From: a virus
Direction: 5' to 3' (one strand)
DNA length: 23,501 nucleotides
Virus record (IMG/VR): IMGVR_UViG_3300022150_000002
Span: 1 to 23,501 of that record
Shown: in pieces, positions 13,724 to 20,671 of the stretch
Layout: each line of letters starts with the position of its first letter
Position numbering within the stretch: the first letter of the stretch is position 1
Program-made: the position numbers and the translations under genes
The notes under the pieces: generated by a model
What the model was told of the DNA's origin: nothing
What the model saw: the letters and a program-made list of their open reading frames with translations, nothing else
The model's database searches: none

Positions 13724-14224
13724 TCATTCCTTCATTCCATATCTCACTAATATTCTTTTAAACCGCGCTTTGTACTGTTCTTGATTTTTAGGCGGTAGCC
13801 ATTCATCTAAGCCTTTTGCACCTTTTTGTCTGTTTAACCTGGCTTCGACGGCGACGAGGTTTATTGGGTCGTTAGCAAACTGTTTTCGCTTTTCCTTGCT
13901 CCATTTATCCGCGCCATGATCCCATGCCCATTTCAGTGGCACTATGTGGTCTATGTCTATCTTTGACGCATCAAATATTACTTCACCGGAATACATAGAA
14001 ATCCAACGACCAAAGACTACACGGCACTGCTTGTCGGTATTAAAACGAACAGGTGCTGTTGATAATGAAATAAGAAGCTCTTGTCGTGTGTTCTGACAAT
14101 CTCGGTCAATATCTGCCCAGCCGCTACCAAACTCACTTCGTTTGTATTTCGCCCCGTCCGCAAGCGCATTACCCGCCAGCAACAACGACACAAATAGACA
14201 AAAAACACACCATATCTTCATCAT
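13724..14224 (-). CDS. Exported HNH-family (DUF1524-like) nuclease, accessory gene
   Basis: A 166-residue protein with a clear signal peptide: MMKIW, the hydrophobic stretch CVFCLFVSLLLAG and an AxA cleavage site ending at Ala22. The mature part has the His-Me finger pattern: IDHIVPLKWAWDHGA with Asp92-His93, then DPINLVAVEARLNRQKG with Asn122 and Asn131, as in the small secreted DUF1524/HNH nucleases. Cys43 and Cys67 may form a disulfide outside the cytoplasm. It should cut DNA in the periplasm or medium. It is convergent with the portal operon (11 bases apart) and stands alone, so it looks like a moron. The signal peptide makes it unlikely to be the packaging HNH protein found beside some terminases. 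Possible roles: degrading incoming phage DNA or free DNA. Confidence 0.88.
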   Translation of the reverse strand: MMKIWCVFCLFVSLLLAGNALADGAKYKRSEFGSGWADIDRDCQNTRQELLISLSTAPVRFNTDKQCRVVFGRWISMYSGEVIFDASKIDIDHIVPLKWAWDHGADKWSKEKRKQFANDPINLVAVEARLNRQKGAKGLDEWLPPKNQEQYKARFKRILVRYGMKE

Positions 14225-14242
14225 GGAACAAACCTTATAACG

Positions 14243-14273
14243 GTTAAAACTTAAAAACGTGACGTGTCACGCT
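14243..14273 (-). repeat. 31-bp repeat copy 1, with dyad CGTGAC-GT-GTCACG
   Basis: This copy differs by one base from 16851-16881. It contains an AT-rich half (GTTAAAACTTAAAAA) and a perfect 6-bp-arm dyad at 14258-14271. It sits 33 bases upstream of the HNH gene start and also upstream of the divergent PH-SHOCT gene. A -10-like TATAAG lies between dyad and gene, 18 bases from GTCACG. It is most simply an operator or activator site. Confidence 0.75.
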
Positions 14274-14281
14274 TGGCGAAA

Positions 14282-14311
14282 TTGTTTATAGTGCCCTTTT
14301 CACATTATGTA
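14282..14311 (+). promoter_or_regulatory. Possible promoter of PH-SHOCT gene
   Basis: TTGTTT at 14282-14287 and TATGTA at 14306-14311 are separated by 18 bases. The gene follows 19 bases later with AAGGA as ribosome site. The match is moderate, and no other promoter is seen for this isolated plus-strand gene. Confidence 0.4.
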
Positions 14312-14330
14312 AACTTAAGGATAAGGAACG

Positions 14331-14885
14331 ATGTTCGATTATAAAAATGCTTCTAAAGACCAGTTAAAAAATCAATTCAAGACGATTGCTCACGAAATGG
14401 GAGACGATCAGTTTTTCACTAAGAAAGAGCTCTATTACCTCCCTGAAGTATTAATGAACAACGAGCAAGTACTTGGTTTCACTTCCGGCATGATGGATAA
14501 CAATACTTGGTTAATTACTCTGACTGACCGTCGAATTATTTTCTTAGACAAAGGTATGCTCTATGGCCTAAGACAATCCTCCACAAACCTAGACAAGATA
14601 AATGCTATATCAGGCGAAACAGGCATGCTATTTGGCACCATTCTGATTACCGATGGCTCGACGACAAGCACGATAAAGCAGGTTTTAAAGAAAACGGTAA
14701 AGAATTTCACAAATAAAGCTCAAGATGCAATCGAAGCCCACCGCGTACAATCGCACCAACAACCGCCACAAAAAGAACAAGCCGCCGATCCATACGAAAA
14801 ACTGGAAAAGCTCGCAGGACTAAGAGACAAAGGCATTATTTCCGAAGAAGAATTTAATGCTGAAAAGAAAAAGATCCTCTCCTAA
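14331..14885 (+). CDS. PH-domain plus SHOCT-domain protein, accessory gene
   Basis: A 184-residue cytoplasmic protein. Residues about 38-125 look like a bacterial PH domain of the YokE type: EQVLGFTSGMMDNNTWLITL, then TDRRIIFLDKGMLYG and ITDGSTT strands, ending in a long helix. Residues about 153-184 are a SHOCT motif, KLEKLAGLRDKGIISEEEF, a short domain usually found at protein ends and thought to mediate oligomerisation. A glutamine-rich linker joins them. It is the only plus-strand gene here, with its own ribosome site and terminator and AT-richer DNA than the morphogenesis genes, all marks of a moron expressed in the lysogen. The biochemical role is unknown; a stress or membrane-exclusion function is only a guess. 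Confidence 0.82.
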   Translation: MFDYKNASKDQLKNQFKTIAHEMGDDQFFTKKELYYLPEVLMNNEQVLGFTSGMMDNNTWLITLTDRRIIFLDKGMLYGLRQSSTNLDKINAISGETGMLFGTILITDGSTTSTIKQVLKKTVKNFTNKAQDAIEAHRVQSHQQPPQKEQAADPYEKLEKLAGLRDKGIISEEEFNAEKKKILS

Positions 14886-14888
14886 CCA

Positions 14889-14914
14889 AAACGCCCCATC
14901 ATTGGGGCGTTTTC
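14889..14914. terminator. Rho-independent terminator after PH-SHOCT gene
   Basis: A perfect 10-bp stem, AAACGCCCCA (14889-14898) with TGGGGCGTTT (14903-14912), has loop TCAT and a T-rich tail. It begins four bases after the stop. The A-run on its left side makes it usable in both directions, and it overlaps the stop of the minus-strand gene at 14899. Confidence 0.92.
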
Positions 14915-15087
14915 TTATCCTTGTCACCAACAACCCAATGCCGATTTGATAATATCGGTTTTCGCTCGCCGCAGCTTGGGCAGTCTTTTAATGTCGCGGT
15001 ATGTGCACCTTGGTCTTTTCGCTTATAACCATTTTTCAGCATGCATTGATGGCACAACTCCAAAACACTTTCATTTTCTTGTTTCAT
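14899..15087 (-). CDS. Small zinc-ribbon protein
   Basis: A 62-residue protein, MKQENESVLELCHQCMLKNG..., starting at ATG 15087 in an ATGA overlap with the gene upstream. Two CxxC knuckles, CHQC (12-15) and CPSC (36-39), with a basic stretch between them, make a four-cysteine zinc ribbon likely. Such small proteins are common in phage early or accessory regions and often bind nucleic acid or an RNA-polymerase-associated partner, but no family is recognised. Its stop lies inside the shared terminator hairpin, so it is the last gene of this minus-strand group. Confidence 0.68.
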   Translation of the reverse strand: MKQENESVLELCHQCMLKNGYKRKDQGAHTATLKDCPSCGERKPILSNRHWVVGDKDKKTPQ

Positions 15088-15545
15088 AAATCGCCCGCAT
15101 ATTTCAGCCCAAAGAAGTCCATTATAAATTCGTCCATTTCCTCTTTTATCGGTATACCGTTTTCGTCACAGCGCTTATTTTCGCCCTGGCTACTCACCAG
15201 CACGCGAAAGCCATAGCCGTAAAACAGAAAATATTCCGGTCTATACAGGCCCACATTTTCATCATCTTTTGTGTACCGTAAAGCCGGCTCATTATGCCGA
15301 CTAACCAAAACCCTTTCTTTTCTTTCTAACATCACACTTTTGTGAGAGTCATGCACTTCAAAGAAATTAAATTCGCTTTTACCTTGGCCGTGAAATTTAC
15401 CGTCAAACAGTTTAGGGATTTTTATAAAATCCTCTTTTTCAATCTCGCCTTTTTTAAACTGGCAATGCATGCATTTTTCAATCTCATATAGACCACCAAG
15501 CCCTTTTCTAAAGCCATGATCTATGCATATTAGTTTCTGCCTCAT
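15084..15545 (-). CDS. Hypothetical phage protein with N-terminal Cys motif
   Basis: A 153-residue protein, not recognised. The first 30 residues contain CIDHGFRKGLGGLY and CMHC (Cys25, Cys28), with Cys7 and His9, which could hold a zinc ion. The rest is a mixed alpha/beta, charged sequence including RPEYFLFYGYGFRVLVSSQG and the acidic end EEMDEFIMDFFGLKYAG. It is coupled by ATGA overlaps at both ends: to the downstream zinc-ribbon gene and to a 15-codon mini-frame upstream. Codon use and tight packing support a real gene. It could be a small host-takeover or defence gene; nothing in the sequence decides. Confidence 0.68.
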   Translation of the reverse strand: MRQKLICIDHGFRKGLGGLYEIEKCMHCQFKKGEIEKEDFIKIPKLFDGKFHGQGKSEFNFFEVHDSHKSVMLERKERVLVSRHNEPALRYTKDDENVGLYRPEYFLFYGYGFRVLVSSQGENKRCDENGIPIKEEMDEFIMDFFGLKYAGDL

Positions 15546-15589
15546 AAGCCACCCATTTTTTTCATTTGTGCGATCAAATCATTATGCAT
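15542..15589 (-). CDS. 15-residue leader-like mini-ORF bridging two genes
   Basis: The frame MHNDLIAQMKKMGGL starts in a TGATG overlap with the stop of the gene at 15589-16149 and ends in an ATGA overlap with the start at 15545. It would carry ribosomes without a break between two genes otherwise separated by 43 bases. It may be a coupling device or the remains of a larger gene. Confidence 0.4.
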   Translation of the reverse strand: MHNDLIAQMKKMGGL

Positions 15590-16149
15590 CAAAGTTTCGA
15601 CCTGTCATGGTTTTTAACAGGCATACGCCGTGCACCCATAATCACTGCGTTCCTAGCCCTAGCCAAATGACGATCAAACAAGCAATGTTCGTCACGCTGA
15701 CAATTTGGATCTAAGCAGTATCGGCAATAGGGTGTTTGTTCTGGTTTGCTCATCCTTGCTGCGGCCCTTCCTATTTTATCAATAGCCTTATCGATTGCCT
15801 TTCTATCATGCCTAAAATCATGAAAGTAACGGCCTGCTGGCATATCACATGACGTTACCGCGTTCATATCGATCTTGAAATCATGGTTAAAAAAGTGGCT
15901 TTTCGGCACGGGTATAGATTCCGCGACGCGTTCGCCTAGTAGCCGTTTGTTGTCGCACTCCACGACGGCCACTTTCAAAAGTAGTTCGTCTATCAAGTGC
16001 TTTGGTATCACGTAGCTCTCTACACGTCCATGACGGGCAATAGCAATGATATCAGCACAATTTACTGCCGTGGCGAGCGTTCCGTTATCTATCTGTCCGA
16101 GGGTGATTTTCTTGGCGTGTTCGATGGTGGTTTCTAGGTTGTTGCTCAT
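15589..16149 (-). CDS. Hypothetical phage protein with C-terminal Cys cluster
   Basis: A 186-residue protein, MSNNLETTIEHAKKITLGQI..., starting at ATG 16149, five bases after the exonuclease stop. The N-terminal half is helical. The middle is rich in His and Asp (GRYFHDFRHDRKAIDKAIDK). Near the end is a cluster, YCRYCLDPNCQRDEHCLFDR, with four cysteines and a histidine that could form a small zinc site, followed by a basic tail (ARNAVIMGARRMPVKNHDRS). No family is recognised. Its place next to the exonuclease suggests a shared nucleic-acid role, which is only an inference. Confidence 0.68.
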   Translation of the reverse strand: MSNNLETTIEHAKKITLGQIDNGTLATAVNCADIIAIARHGRVESYVIPKHLIDELLLKVAVVECDNKRLLGERVAESIPVPKSHFFNHDFKIDMNAVTSCDMPAGRYFHDFRHDRKAIDKAIDKIGRAAARMSKPEQTPYCRYCLDPNCQRDEHCLFDRHLARARNAVIMGARRMPVKNHDRSKL

Positions 16150-16154
16150 TCTGC

Positions 16155-16823
16155 TTACTCCTCTTCCTTTTCAGCATCAACCCAACCCACCACTTTACCT
16201 CTGCTTGTTACCGCCACTTTCTTTATCTCTTGCTCTGCCGTTTTTATATCTTCACTTAATGCCAACGCCCCTTTGAATTGCTTTAGCACTTCAATGAGTA
16301 TTTTCGCTTCGTGTCTCGCGTCGTCTAGCGCCCTGTGTTGAACGCCCTCGAACGGTAGGTCTTTCTTTGGATCGATATCCAACAACATACGGCCAAATAA
16401 CACAGCGGTGCGTATGGATTGATTCGAACCAAAATCCCACGGCGCGGATCGTCCTAGCTCTGTTTTGAAGGCGTGTTCTAAAATCGTGTTGTCGAATTCA
16501 GGACCATTGCCGAACACTTGGGGGCGCTTGATGCCCGTCTGCTCTATCCATTCCCCAAACAATTCTAAACCGTCTTTTAACGCTCCATCATTGAAAGGCT
16601 TAAACACCTCTTCCCAAGCTTCAAAATTTTCATTTCTCTGCTTTTCCCACCACGCCATTGTTGATTCGCTTACCGTTCGTCCTGGCTGATTTTGACCCAT
16701 AACGCAATTAAACGTTTCCCCAATAGTTAGCGTGTCGGTATCTACGACCACGGCACCAATCGACAGAATAACCGCTGTTTGTAGTGTGTCTTTTGTTTCA
16801 ATGTCTGTAACGATGACTTTCAT
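16155..16823 (-). CDS. DEDDh-type 3'-5' exonuclease
   Basis: A 222-residue nuclease of the RNase T/DnaQ superfamily, close to phage DexA-like and Rv2179c-like exonucleases. Motif Exo I is VTDIETKD (Asp6, Glu8), Exo II is FGNGPEFDNTILEHAF with Asp at about 110, and Exo III is HRALDDARHEAKIL with the His and Asp at about 163 and 167, so the metal-binding set is complete. It should remove 3' ends of single-stranded DNA or RNA with two metal ions. ATG 16823 has AGGA nine bases upstream. A repeat with a dyad (16851-16881) lies just before it, suggesting its own promoter distinct from the early operon. The C-terminus is an acidic tail. Confidence 0.9.
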   Translation of the reverse strand: MKVIVTDIETKDTLQTAVILSIGAVVVDTDTLTIGETFNCVMGQNQPGRTVSESTMAWWEKQRNENFEAWEEVFKPFNDGALKDGLELFGEWIEQTGIKRPQVFGNGPEFDNTILEHAFKTELGRSAPWDFGSNQSIRTAVLFGRMLLDIDPKKDLPFEGVQHRALDDARHEAKILIEVLKQFKGALALSEDIKTAEQEIKKVAVTSRGKVVGWVDAEKEEE

Positions 16824-16850
16824 AATGTGTTTTCCTGTTTACTTTACAGT

Positions 16851-16881
16851 GTTAAAAATTAAAAACGTGACGTGTCACGCT
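16851..16881 (-). repeat. 31-bp repeat copy 2, with dyad CGTGAC-GT-GTCACG
   Basis: 30 of 31 bases match the copy at 14243-14273. The dyad is at 16866-16879, 42 bases upstream of the exonuclease ATG and 4 bases after the stop of the small gene ending at 16884. In the minus direction the dyad is followed by TTTTT, so here it could also act as a terminator; the other copy has no gene in a position to need one. Confidence 0.75.
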
Positions 16882-16883
16882 AT

Positions 16884-17270
16884 TTATAATCTCAGTTTCT
16901 TTTCTTCTCGCGTGTACCAGCATTCCGCCACGCCTTTTAGCCTTGGCAGGCCAAGGCCATTTTTGCAGCCCATCGGTAAGGGCTCGCCACAAAAGTCGCA
17001 TTGTCCTAAATGCTGCTTTTCCGCTTCCATCCTCTCCTTGTCGCGGCGGATCAGTGTGGCTATGTATTCGTTGGCCTCGTATGGTTCAGCACCGCCGCGA
17101 TAAGCGCACAGCTCGGCCAGTGTTTCGGACTCGGTTTGTGATAATGGAACTCGGTATTCATGAATACCGAGTTCCGATTTTTTTTCAGCGTCTCGTGCAC
17201 GCTTGGCGCGCTGGCGCTCTTTGTCTTGCTGGCGCTTTTGGTCGGCTTTGGCTTGGTCGTTGTTTTTCAT
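16884..17270 (-). CDS. Small basic phage protein with Cys motif, last gene of early operon
   Basis: A 128-residue protein, not recognised, starting in an ATGA overlap with the methylase stop. The first 35 residues are lysine/arginine-rich and helical (QKRQQDKERQRAKRARDAEK). A central part (SQTESETLAELCAYRGGAEP, then EANEYIATLIRRDKERM) looks like the helices of a small DNA-binding or ribbon-helix-helix-like fold. The C-terminal part has CDFCGEPLPMGC and a later Cys (AECWYTREEK), a probable zinc site. Its coding sequence contains a perfect 30-bp palindrome (17146-17175), which encodes ELGIHEYRV. Related small proteins follow methylase or Rep genes in other P2-like prophages (recall). Confidence 0.72.
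   Translation of the reverse strand: MKNNDQAKADQKRQQDKERQRAKRARDAEKKSELGIHEYRVPLSQTESETLAELCAYRGGAEPYEANEYIATLIRRDKERMEAEKQHLGQCDFCGEPLPMGCKNGLGLPRLKGVAECWYTREEKKLRL
17146..17185 (+). repeat. Perfect 30-bp palindrome followed by T8
   Basis: GGAACTCGGTATTCA (17146-17160) is followed directly by its exact reverse complement (17161-17175), with no spacer. On the plus strand GA and eight T follow (17178-17185), so transcription in that direction would meet a terminator-like stem with a T-run. It lies inside the 128-residue gene, antisense to it. No other inverted repeat of this length was seen in the window. Confidence 0.9.
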
Positions 17271-18649
17271 GCCGCTATCTCGACGCGCAATGGTTTATAG
17301 TTAGACGCTGCCAATGCTTGTGCTAATGGCGGGCAAACGGCATTGCCACAGCGCGCCACTTGGTTTGCCTTTGTTAATTTCTTGCCTTGGCTGTCATGAC
17401 TTATTTTGTAATCCGCTGGAAAGCCCATACCTTTGAAAAGCTCGTATGGCTCCAGCATGCGCAAGCCAATATCAATAATTTGGTAAGCCGTCCCCTTCAC
17501 CATGACCAATCCGAAACGATCCCGCGTGGTAATGGTGTGCAAAGGTTTATCTATCTCTTGAGCGCCACCCGTTCCGTAGTACTCGATAAGAAACGCGCGC
17601 ACTTCGCCAAGATGAAAACCGCCGGCTGAAATAGTGTGCAAAGGCTCGTTGGTGCCGTGGCCTATGTTGTCACCGCGAAACTTCACGATGTGGCTAGTGA
17701 CCAAAGCAAAATGACCGCCTTTAACTTGCGCGCAAATCGTGCGTAATGGTTCGTCTATCGCCATATTTCTTTGATGGCTTGCATTCGCGTATTCGGTAAT
17801 AAAACTTATCTTGGTTGGATCAGGCGCAAGAAACGGCGCTTCCGTAAAAGCAAACTTTTCCAACCCCTTGGCGATCCGTTTCAATGAGTTTTCAGCCAAA
17901 GGCTTTTTTCTTCCGAAGATCGATTTCACAGGTAAATTCCAATCGATAATTTCCGCCGCTGTTTTGTATGGCTGCAGCCCTTCTCCGTGCGTTGGTTCCG
18001 GCCATATGATTGGTTCACCGTCTTTGCGGGCAATCAAAAATAAACGGCTTCGCGTTGTGGGTACGCCATAATCACACGCTTTCATCACTCGCCATTCCAC
18101 CTGGTAACCCAAACCGCGTTCGATTTTTGATAAGTCGAATTCCTCACCTAGCGCGTGTTTTACGTCTTCAGTGCTTGGATGATTTAAAGCAAGCCCCGTT
18201 GTCAGTGCGGATATGAACGCTTTGAATGTTTCGCCTTTTCGCTTTTTGCACGGCTTGCCATCCACTACAGGGCCCCACGTCAAAAACTCTTCTACGTTTT
18301 CAAGCATGAACATACGAACAGGCACCGACGCGGCCCAACGAACGGCCACCCACGCCAAGCCACGAATATTATTGTTTACTGGCGTGGCGCCTTTGGCTTT
18401 TGAAAAATGTTTGCAGTCTGGTGAAAACCAAGCCAACCCAACGGGATGACCATTGCACGCCTCTACCGGATCAACGTCCCATACCGATTCGCAGTAATGG
18501 CGCGTTTCTGGATGATTCATTTTGTGCATATCGATGGCCGCTTGGTCGTGATTGATAGCAATATCAACATGGCGATTTAAACCCAGTTCAATGCCAGTGC
18601 TCGCACCACCACCGCCCGCAAAATTGTCGACTATGATTTCCCGTTTCAT
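17267..18649 (-). CDS. DNA (cytosine-5) methyltransferase, orphan
   Basis: A 460-residue C5 methylase that transfers methyl from SAM to cytosine. Motif I is DNFAGGGGAS (9-18), motif IV is FSPDCKHFS with the nucleophile Cys79 in SPDC instead of the usual PCQ, motif VI is ENVEEF (117-122), motif VIII is TTRSRLFLIA, and the motif IX-X region ends ARCGNAVCPP. The probable target-recognition region holds three related units: EPLRTICAQ...GGHFALV, EPLHTISAGGFHLGEV and KPLHTITTRDRFGLV. The ATG at 18649 is chosen because AGAGGTG precedes it; a GTG at 18655 lies inside that site. No restriction enzyme gene is adjacent, so it probably protects phage DNA from host restriction. It overlaps the following gene by ATGA. 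Confidence 0.94.
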   Translation of the reverse strand: MKREIIVDNFAGGGGASTGIELGLNRHVDIAINHDQAAIDMHKMNHPETRHYCESVWDVDPVEACNGHPVGLAWFSPDCKHFSKAKGATPVNNNIRGLAWVAVRWAASVPVRMFMLENVEEFLTWGPVVDGKPCKKRKGETFKAFISALTTGLALNHPSTEDVKHALGEEFDLSKIERGLGYQVEWRVMKACDYGVPTTRSRLFLIARKDGEPIIWPEPTHGEGLQPYKTAAEIIDWNLPVKSIFGRKKPLAENSLKRIAKGLEKFAFTEAPFLAPDPTKISFITEYANASHQRNMAIDEPLRTICAQVKGGHFALVTSHIVKFRGDNIGHGTNEPLHTISAGGFHLGEVRAFLIEYYGTGGAQEIDKPLHTITTRDRFGLVMVKGTAYQIIDIGLRMLEPYELFKGMGFPADYKISHDSQGKKLTKANQVARCGNAVCPPLAQALAASNYKPLRVEIAA

Positions 18650-18651
18650 GC

Positions 18652-18903
18652 TCACCTCTTCAAGTCCAATTCATTTTGTTGGTTAACCAATGCGCGGGCC
18701 ATGTCGTAGACGTCGGATTGTGGCGGGTTGATGTAGTGCTTGAATTCCATACCAAAAACCGCGCGCGCGCCGCACCCGTCCTTCTCTACGCACTGCACGT
18801 AAAGTTCTTTGTAAAACACGTCTTTTATGTCTTTTGCTAAATCGTTGCTGTTCGTGATAATCGCCTTGCCTTTACACCGTGGACATTTAACCCGTACTGA
18901 CAT
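18652..18903 (-). CDS. Ogr/Delta-like zinc-finger late activator
   Basis: An 83-residue protein from ATG 18903, which follows a strong site, GGAGGTG; the frame is open further back to a GTG at 18975 but that reading lies inside Rep. It matches the Ogr/Delta family: CPRC (Cys7, Cys10), then a helix, YVQC (Cys38) and Cys44, together one zinc, then VFGMEFKHYINPP. In P2 this protein activates late promoters by contacting RNA polymerase alpha, so it should turn on the divergent operons around 9896-10071. In P2 ogr lies near the tail genes; here it follows Rep with a 17-base overlap, making it an early-operon product. The second Cys pair has five residues between the cysteines, a slightly wider gap than usual. 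Confidence 0.88.
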   Translation of the reverse strand: MSVRVKCPRCKGKAIITNSNDLAKDIKDVFYKELYVQCVEKDGCGARAVFGMEFKHYINPPQSDVYDMARALVNQQNELDLKR

Positions 18904-20671
18904 TTGCGCCACCTCCACCGCTTCCGGTTCGCTGATTTCCGAGGCCGAAACTCGGCCCCGTACAGTTATTGACACGAGTCCAAGGGACGGCTTCGCCGTC
19001 CTCTAAAGAAGAAGACCCTTTTTTACGTACAGTCCACTCGTGAAGGCGAGTCACTAACACACTAATTTCATCAGCCACGCCTTTTACCGCCCTAACCATT
19101 TCGCCATATTGGTTCTCAACCGCTTCGCCATAATGAATTTTTAGCGCCTGATCACGACCAGCAAACACGCCGCCCATGAGTTTGATGAACCCACCATAAT
19201 CAGCACGGTTTGCCGCGTGATAAATGTCTTTGAAAAACTCTGGTGCATTGTCTTTGCCGAACTTACGCAGTTCACGCCACACAGTGACGGACGCACCCCC
19301 AACGAATTGAAACTGACGGATATGATTTAAACGCGCCCACGCAACAATTCTTTTGGCCGCATCAGACCCGCTTCGGCCAGTTTCTAGGTCGGTATCGACG
19401 TGTTTACCATGGATGTTTTTAGAAATGTATTTGACGATGTAACCCACGGCAGAGCCTTTTTCTGGGTCAATCTTTTCGACTTTAACGCGGTACTTTTTCG
19501 CGCCCGCTTCGTTGCCATCTTCTGCCAACGCGTAATCGGAAAACGCCTGTAAAAATTCCTCTGCCCTATTCGGCTCCACCCATAGCATCAAATGCCAATG
19601 CGGACTGCCATCATGATGCGGCTCTACCGTTCGCAAACCATAAAACGTTATGCCATGGCGATTGCAGTACGAACGAAAACGACGCCAAACGCCGTTTAAG
19701 TGGGCATGAGCCCCGCGAACATTTGGGCACTCAGCGCGCCAAAACTTTCTATTTCTGACACTGAAATGTTTCCCGCCTTTTTCAATGGATGTAATCGGAT
19801 GATATTTAGACGGCGCCGTAAGGGTAAGAAAGTAGCCCTCGTGCCCCTCTTCTTCCGCTAGTTCCTCCAAGCCCTTGGCACGAACCACCAATTCAGAAAA
19901 TCGATTATCAGGATTGGATACGCACTTTTCAGACAATTGGGCCAGCGTGAAAGACTGCCCCAATTCGTTAACCGCCTCCCAACTTTCTAAAAAGGCTTTG
20001 TTATTTTCCGCTTGTCTTTCTGCTTTCTTCAGCGCCCAATTAGACACATACGGCGATTTATAACGCTCTACTTCGCCACACTCTCTCAATATATCTTCGA
20101 CGATGACCCATTGCTTTTTAGCCTGCCTTACCCACCACTCCGTGGTGATCATGCGAGCCATAAAACCCAACACTCTGGCATCATCGTCCCAAGCGTCAAA
20201 CTGAATACCCACATCAACAAGCTGGGCATGAATAAAACCCTTTACCCCTTCAATGCCGCTTTCTAGGTAAATACCCATCATTTCGGTTTCGAAGTAATTG
20301 CTCTTTTTCCACGCCCACTGCTGCAATTGCTCGCCGTCTAACTCTGTGATCATCTTGTCGCAAAAGTGAAGGCGCTTAACCACACTACGCAACCACACCA
20401 TGGCAGTTCCTTTTGGCGCCCTTTTCCTCACCTCTAATTCATACAAACGATCACACTCTTTACCGACAACGCCCCGCATTACCGACACTTTCGCCAATAA
20501 CTCAAAGCGCTCAATAACGCCACGCAACCAACCGTTTGCGGCGACATAGCCTTTTTCTGGGTCTAACTCGTCAAGACGCTTTTGCAAAACGGTAGCGTCC
20601 TCACGACTTACACCCGTTAATAACTCCTCGCGCCAAACAAGACATTGTGGAGTTGGATTTGTCTCAAACAT
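18887..20671 (-). CDS. Rolling-circle replication initiator endonuclease, P2 gpA-like
   Basis: A 594-residue HUH endonuclease of the P2 gpA family. Motif 1 is FLTLTAPSKYHP, motif 2 (HUH) is SPHWHLMLW (about residue 357) and motif 3 is GYIVKYISKNI (about 410) with both tyrosines four apart, as in gpA, where they alternate in nicking and joining. It nicks the origin, becomes linked to the 5' end and starts rolling-circle synthesis with host Rep helicase. The N-terminal 250 residues are a helical domain typical of the family. The last 40 residues are low-complexity after VPWTRVNNCTG and overlie the candidate origin. P2 gpA is 761 residues, so this is a shorter version. It overlaps the upstream gene by eight bases. 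Confidence 0.95.
   Translation of the reverse strand: MFETNPTPQCLVWREELLTGVSREDATVLQKRLDELDPEKGYVAANGWLRGVIERFELLAKVSVMRGVVGKECDRLYELEVRKRAPKGTAMVWLRSVVKRLHFCDKMITELDGEQLQQWAWKKSNYFETEMMGIYLESGIEGVKGFIHAQLVDVGIQFDAWDDDARVLGFMARMITTEWWVRQAKKQWVIVEDILRECGEVERYKSPYVSNWALKKAERQAENNKAFLESWEAVNELGQSFTLAQLSEKCVSNPDNRFSELVVRAKGLEELAEEEGHEGYFLTLTAPSKYHPITSIEKGGKHFSVRNRKFWRAECPNVRGAHAHLNGVWRRFRSYCNRHGITFYGLRTVEPHHDGSPHWHLMLWVEPNRAEEFLQAFSDYALAEDGNEAGAKKYRVKVEKIDPEKGSAVGYIVKYISKNIHGKHVDTDLETGRSGSDAAKRIVAWARLNHIRQFQFVGGASVTVWRELRKFGKDNAPEFFKDIYHAANRADYGGFIKLMGGVFAGRDQALKIHYGEAVENQYGEMVRAVKGVADEISVLVTRLHEWTVRKKGSSSLEDGEAVPWTRVNNCTGPSFGLGNQRTGSGGGGANVSTG
18943..19001 (-). other. Candidate phage replication origin (gpA nick region)
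   Basis: On the minus strand CCTTGGACTCGTGTCAA (18969-18985) resembles the P2 gpA cleavage region as I remember it (CCTCGGAGTCCTGTCAA), 14 of 17 bases. It is flanked by two perfect hairpins: GGCCGA-AAC-TCGGCC (18943-18957) and GGACGGC-TTC-GCCGTCC (18985-19001). It lies in the 3' end of the Rep gene, where the protein is low complexity. P2 also keeps its origin within gene A. Confidence 0.7.

Follow-up and report, generated by a model that had tools for sequence, protein, structure and literature searches.

Long inverted repeats inside protein-coding genes are known from the mitochondria of Nematomorpha, where perfect coding palindromes are numerous and reach 284 bp, hydrophilic insertions beside the repeats are reported and template switching is proposed (PMC6649704). 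The phase in which the codons of the two arms face each other matters there: phase 1 constrains the protein least, and phases 1 and 2 prevail (PMC6649704). In E. coli, quasipalindromes become perfect inverted repeats by template switching, as followed in thyA and lacZ reporters (PMC7202029), and the same process has been inferred for RNA stems, multibase compensatory changes being a described footprint of it (PMC8794818). Palindromes within genes also include the Rickettsia palindromic elements, which, as far as the study citing them describes them (PMC6649704), are inserted repeats in many genes.

The palindrome reported here lies in a phage gene, in a 23,501-nucleotide stretch of viral DNA that we call the window. 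It resembles the Nematomorpha repeats in being a perfect in-gene inverted repeat whose two arms code for conserved residues, in its phase 1 pairing, in the hydrophilic residues added nearby and in the suggested role of template switching; unlike them, it is a single 30-bp copy. With the quasipalindrome hotspots it shares perfect arms and adjacent two-sided changes, but the present case is inferred from eight distinct sequences rather than from mutations being watched. It differs from the Rickettsia elements, as cited there, in being single-copy, with homologues that align without an insertion. In our preferred reading, which we rate somewhat below an even chance, this coding palindrome is specific to one lineage; template switching during replication keeps its arms alike, and constraint on the protein locks them.

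The palindrome and its gene

The original prediction had described a perfect palindrome of 30 bp without a spacer, with GA and T8 behind it, and all of these were found at the exact coordinates (Table 1). The arms of 15 nt each are 100% complementary with a spacer of 0, and GA at 17176-17177 separates them from T8. Such a structure had been called unlikely by chance, which our comparison bears out. The runner-up spacerless palindrome in the whole window has arms of only 6 bp, and the longest arm across 200 simulated order-1 Markov sequences of the window's length was 6-10 nt, a maximum of 10 against the observed 15. An assembly artefact, for which a check of the base calls had been advised, is excluded because independent records share the palindrome; at least one of these has an isolate-type IMG taxon number. 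The concern that a palindrome of 30 bp is hard to keep in cells with SbcCD does not apply, as this size is far below the problem range. SbcCD-related instability sets in at palindrome lengths of about 150 bp.

Table 1 Coordinates of features in and around the regulator gene
Feature	Position in the window	Strand	Remarks
Regulator gene, 128 aa	16884..17270	-	phrog_536 'transcriptional regulator', E=2.4e-27, residues 13-128
Perfect spacerless 30-bp palindrome, GGAACTCGGTATTCATGAATACCGAGTTCC	17146..17175	no strand	arms 17146-17160 and 17161-17175
Inner palindrome, TCGGTATTCNNGAATACCGA	17151..17170		kept in 8/8 distinct relatives, in L033 with one mismatched pair
T8, read as A8 in mRNA (codons GAA AAA AAA)	17178..17185	+	at least 7 in all relatives
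Four extra codons (AEKK) adjoining the palindrome	17178..17189	-	in palindrome-bearing relatives, absent from aligned homologues without palindrome
Invariant flank outside the palindrome, ATTATC (sense) / GATAAT (plus)	17140..17145	no strand
Candidate operator, AACGTGACGTGTCACGCT	16864..16881	no strand	directly past the regulator stop codon
Second candidate-operator copy	14256..14273	no strand	overlaps the -35 of a promoter-like site
Strong bidirectional intrinsic terminator, early-operon end	14888..14913 (scored 14892-14909)	no strand	score +29; used as yardstick

The palindrome does lie antisense within a 128-residue minus-strand ORF, and the peptide ELGIHEYRV(P) is encoded on both strands as predicted, with a plus-strand tblastn match at 17147-17179. 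The gene had also been said to end the early operon, which is wrong: more ORFs come after it on the minus strand, one of them an exonuclease-like gene at 16155-16823. The encoded regulator has a basic helical N-terminus, a ribbon-helix-helix-like segment at residues 33-86 and a C-terminal zinc-finger-like segment with a cysteine cluster (C91..C94..C102..C117). In a low-confidence AlphaFold model, helices span residues 2-31, 45-59 and 66-86, and residues 32-44 are extended. The layout of helices fits a ribbon-helix-helix protein, but the strand is unmodelled in the monomer (pLDDT 64). A profile search against solved structures gave weak matches only, to TraR/YbiI and CopG (E=0.085 for CopG). 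The palindrome codons presumably encode the DNA-contacting beta-strand (ELGIHEYRV) of this regulator.

The surroundings are P2-like and include Rep (phrog_91), terminase, scaffold, an Ogr/Delta-like zinc finger, and CII-like and CI-like regulators. A search of the phage collection for a close Rep with which to compare the origin found none, the best match having 37% identity. At 14331-14885 lies a gene for a bacterial PH and SHOCT protein, a probable moron that has the candidate operator upstream of it and ends in a strong terminator of its own (14888-14913).

Distribution and conservation among relatives

The IMG/VR set comprises a near-identical record (L004/L006), five further members of the same clade (L005, L007, L008, L009 and L010) and two more distant relatives, L033 and L044. 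Regulator proteins are 84-90% identical for these five, 78% for L033 and 61% for L044. All clade members, that is, five further distinct loci and the near-identical record, carry a palindrome of 28-30 bp, and its 28-bp core is invariant across the six distinct clade sequences. When IMG/VR was searched with a degenerate GIHEYRVP pattern that allowed any codons, all matching loci carried the palindromic codons. L033 has the sequence GTCACTCGGTATTCGTGAATATCGAGTGAC, with two adjacent pairs altered on both sides, one G-T pair and a different centre. The two-sided change, GA/TC to TC/GA, turns E33 to S and P42 to T and leaves the pairing intact. L044 retains only TCGGTATTC-GA-GAATACCGA, i.e. the inner 9 bp.

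Both the palindrome and AEKK are absent from homologues of Vibrio, Aeromonas, Yersinia, Pantoea, Marinomonas and E. coli phages, none of which exceeds 48% identity. Because these palindrome-free homologues align gaplessly through the same residues (ELGI/ALGI/QLGI...V.LS), with only the four adjoining residues extra, the palindrome arose by substitution in place. An insertion footprint, one of the origins suggested in the original prediction, is disfavoured by the same alignment. An inserted palindromic element was likewise rejected, given the gapless protein alignment, the presence of the palindrome once per genome and the lack of an exact copy in GTDB genome contigs. Other exact IMG/VR matches to the inner motif lie at unrelated places (a head protease, a Dam-like gene, a DNA polymerase and an apparently intergenic site) and are hardly more numerous than chance would give for a motif with 18 specified bases. 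A scan of GTDB proteins found no relative, phage and plasmid DNA held no related sequence covering the palindrome region well, and Rfam gave no match for window positions 14000-19000.

In the relatives, the palindrome is kept while the surrounding codons vary, and an ordinary non-palindromic sequence does not take its place. Codons 33-43, 11 in a row, never vary in the six distinct clade sequences; outside codons 33-44, silent variation occurs in 54 of the 79 amino-acid-invariant codons. The excess of silent invariance in codons 33-44 is significant (Fisher p=1e-4) and persists with L033 and L044 added (p=0.004), where fewer codons can be compared. These 11 codons form the longest codon-invariant run in the regulator gene. 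In Rep the longest such run, located at the catalytic motif, has 9 codons; fewer sequences are independent in that comparison, because the Rep of L005 and that of the window are 98.8% identical. Covariation is modest and consists of two two-sided pairs, both from L033 only, which 31-42 of 500 shuffles reach. Some invariance also spills past the palindrome, as no variation is seen in the preceding GAA AAA or in the Leu codon TTA that follows; their joint chance is ~0.03 at background rates of 3/7 for E, 5/9 for K and 1/9 for L. Chance combined with ordinary protein conservation of the beta-strand is a very improbable account of these patterns. IGI[HR]EYR[VI] is indeed conserved as protein within the palindrome-bearing clade, but 0 of 11 codons varying against 54 of 79 elsewhere exceeds what such conservation gives, and the perfect symmetry would be left unexplained.

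We note several features next to the regulator. Relative to L005, a recombination boundary lies between Rep and the regulator gene, which is 88% identical. A C5 cytosine methylase gene (17267-18655) sits between the two and is absent there in L005 and L010, marking a cargo slot. Near the C-terminus of Rep (window 18887-20671), the runs VPWTRVN and CTGPSFG are codon-invariant across relatives and may indicate a nucleotide-level element such as an in-gene origin.

A proposed lock by template switching and protein constraint

The two arms pair codon position 1 with 1 and 2 with 3, a 'phase 1' repeat as in coding palindromes. Of the single changes that are silent in one arm, 22 are possible, and each of them is missense once copied onto the other arm. 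From these patterns we infer template switching as the cause, with no separate function needed. The palindrome would have formed in place, most likely by a replication template switch that copied one arm as the reverse complement, and the same copying process, together with protein constraint, would since have kept the arms perfect. A silent change in one arm would either be copied back to the original or spread as missense and be purged. Because all 22 silent changes turn missense, copying from arm to arm would freeze the sequence under protein constraint alone. Arms unable to drift would then look ultra-conserved without a dedicated nucleotide function.

Template switching would explain the adjacent two-sided changes of L033, the least-constraining phase, the restriction to one lineage and the missing uniform strand signal. 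The signal is indeed not uniform: L033, by its G-U pair, points to the mRNA strand, and L044, by its outer stem, to the opposite one. Four mostly hydrophilic residues flank the palindrome in the regulator. Three observations count against this reading. It does not predict the invariant GAA AAA and TTA beyond the palindrome, L033 keeps an uncorrected silent change (TAC to TAT), and the hairpin, which in each of the eight relatives comes with seven or more A/T in a run, resembles a functional signal. A functional structure stays in play because the lock leaves GAA AAA and TTA unexplained, and the functional readings taken together have a chance of about one half.

The locus offers a small, clean test of what ultra-conserved silent sites say about function. 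Should template switching with protein constraint be able to freeze a coding palindrome, phage genomes would call for a third explanation of silent-site conservation and covariation, which are usually taken as proof of functional RNA. Should the structure be functional instead, the codons for the strand with which a repressor-like protein reads DNA would also spell a regulatory hairpin.

Possible RNA and DNA signals at the locus

Among functional accounts, a dual-coded regulatory hairpin is possible but doubtful. The codons of the DNA-contacting strand would double as RNA structure with an A/U tract, and the regulator's own level would be tuned by frameshifting, slippage or antisense termination. 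If the hairpin acted in the mRNA on ribosomes, the A_AAA_AAA/U run and the stem would cause -1 frameshifting or slippage, and a short truncated product would leave less regulator. We consider this unlikely, although several features are in its favour. In-frame GAA AAA AA[A/T] with a downstream hairpin is found in 8/8 relatives, with the slippery heptamer A_AAA_AAA in five and A_AAA_AAT in three. In seven of the eight, a stop codon closes the -1 frame after 1-6 codons, and the changed L033 pair is G-U on the mRNA strand only, being A-C on the other. The under-representation of A7 runs in enteric genes (PMC5009743) also counts for frameshifting. The known dnaX signal consists of AAAAAAG, a 5-nt spacer and an 11-bp stem (PMC8861025), and the phage locus has an A_AAA_AA run and a downstream stem of similar length; once ~3 bp melt, the remaining stem begins at a distance from the P site, ~11-12 nt, that is like that in dnaX. 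Unlike in dnaX-type signals, the spacer, the last slippery codon and the downstream frame are all unconserved. The main clade has a nominal spacer of 2 nt, which speaks against frameshifting, and L044 one of 7 nt; the -1 product is not conserved, with 32-37 aa in seven relatives and 126 aa in L044. In E. coli, moreover, A_AAA_AAA shifts far less readily than A_AAA_AAG (PMC5009743).

On the plus strand, the same structure could be an antisense intrinsic terminator, in which a 13-15-bp hairpin with U7-8 would halt RNA polymerase opposing the early operon. Of this proposal, already made in the original prediction, the hairpin and T7-8 stand in all eight relatives. The hairpin contains GC, has a loop of 4 and a stability of -19.1 kcal/mol, and with its U7-8 tail it is like a Rho-independent terminator. 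L044 lends support: its outer arms differ, yet its plus-strand RNA folds into a long stem that contains G-U pairs and a single bulge and directly abuts U8 (score +10), and its mRNA strand keeps the inner stem only. The proposal fares worse elsewhere, as the main clade and L033 lack a U tract directly at the stem base and score about -22 to -55 on a d'Aubenton-Carafa-type scale, the window site being borderline if a terminal U-G pair is counted. A gap of 2-3 nt between stem and T run accounts for these negative scores. This tail and the low score in all but one relative, as well as the in-gene, antisense position, set the locus apart from Rho-independent terminators. Moreover, the terminator at 14892-14909 already blocks plus-strand traffic 2.2 kb upstream of the palindrome, and a conserved plus-strand promoter was looked for in the relatives and not found. 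Two candidate promoters were rejected: an antisense one near 16885 (TATAAT) varies in spacing and lacks the -10 box in L009 and L033, and a plus-strand GATAAT beside the palindrome has no -35, its extended -10 TG being missing in L007. Antisense termination is an improbable reading in our estimate.

A DNA site within the gene, serving as a symmetric binding or nicking site for a phage or host regulator, Rep or a recombinase, appears quite improbable. The inner 20 bp are kept by sequence around a variable 2-bp centre (AT, GT or GA), as in many operators. Use of the motif as a repressor operator is weakened. Within 3 mismatches there is one copy per genome and thus none near the repressor promoters, the arms of 14-15 bp are longer than most dimers read, and presence is independent of the neighbouring methylase. 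The regulator also has a better operator candidate, GTGACNNGTCAC, and because of it we argue that the 30-bp palindrome is not the regulator's main DNA site.

GTGACNNGTCAC is likely the operator of the phrog_536 regulator, judging from its distribution. Of 21 records with phrog_536, from phages or plasmids, 20 contain it; these records include mutual relatives and are not all independent. It is found in 0/9 control phages without phrog_536. Among 20 inspected genes, 12 have the motif close to the regulator stop codon, at -21 to +9 nt. This by-product of the analysis may matter more than the palindrome. The motif is also present in L007, L008, L009, L010, L033, L044, L011, L012, L018, L019 and L022, and its distribution reaches Vibrio, Aeromonas, Pectobacterium and E. 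coli phages.
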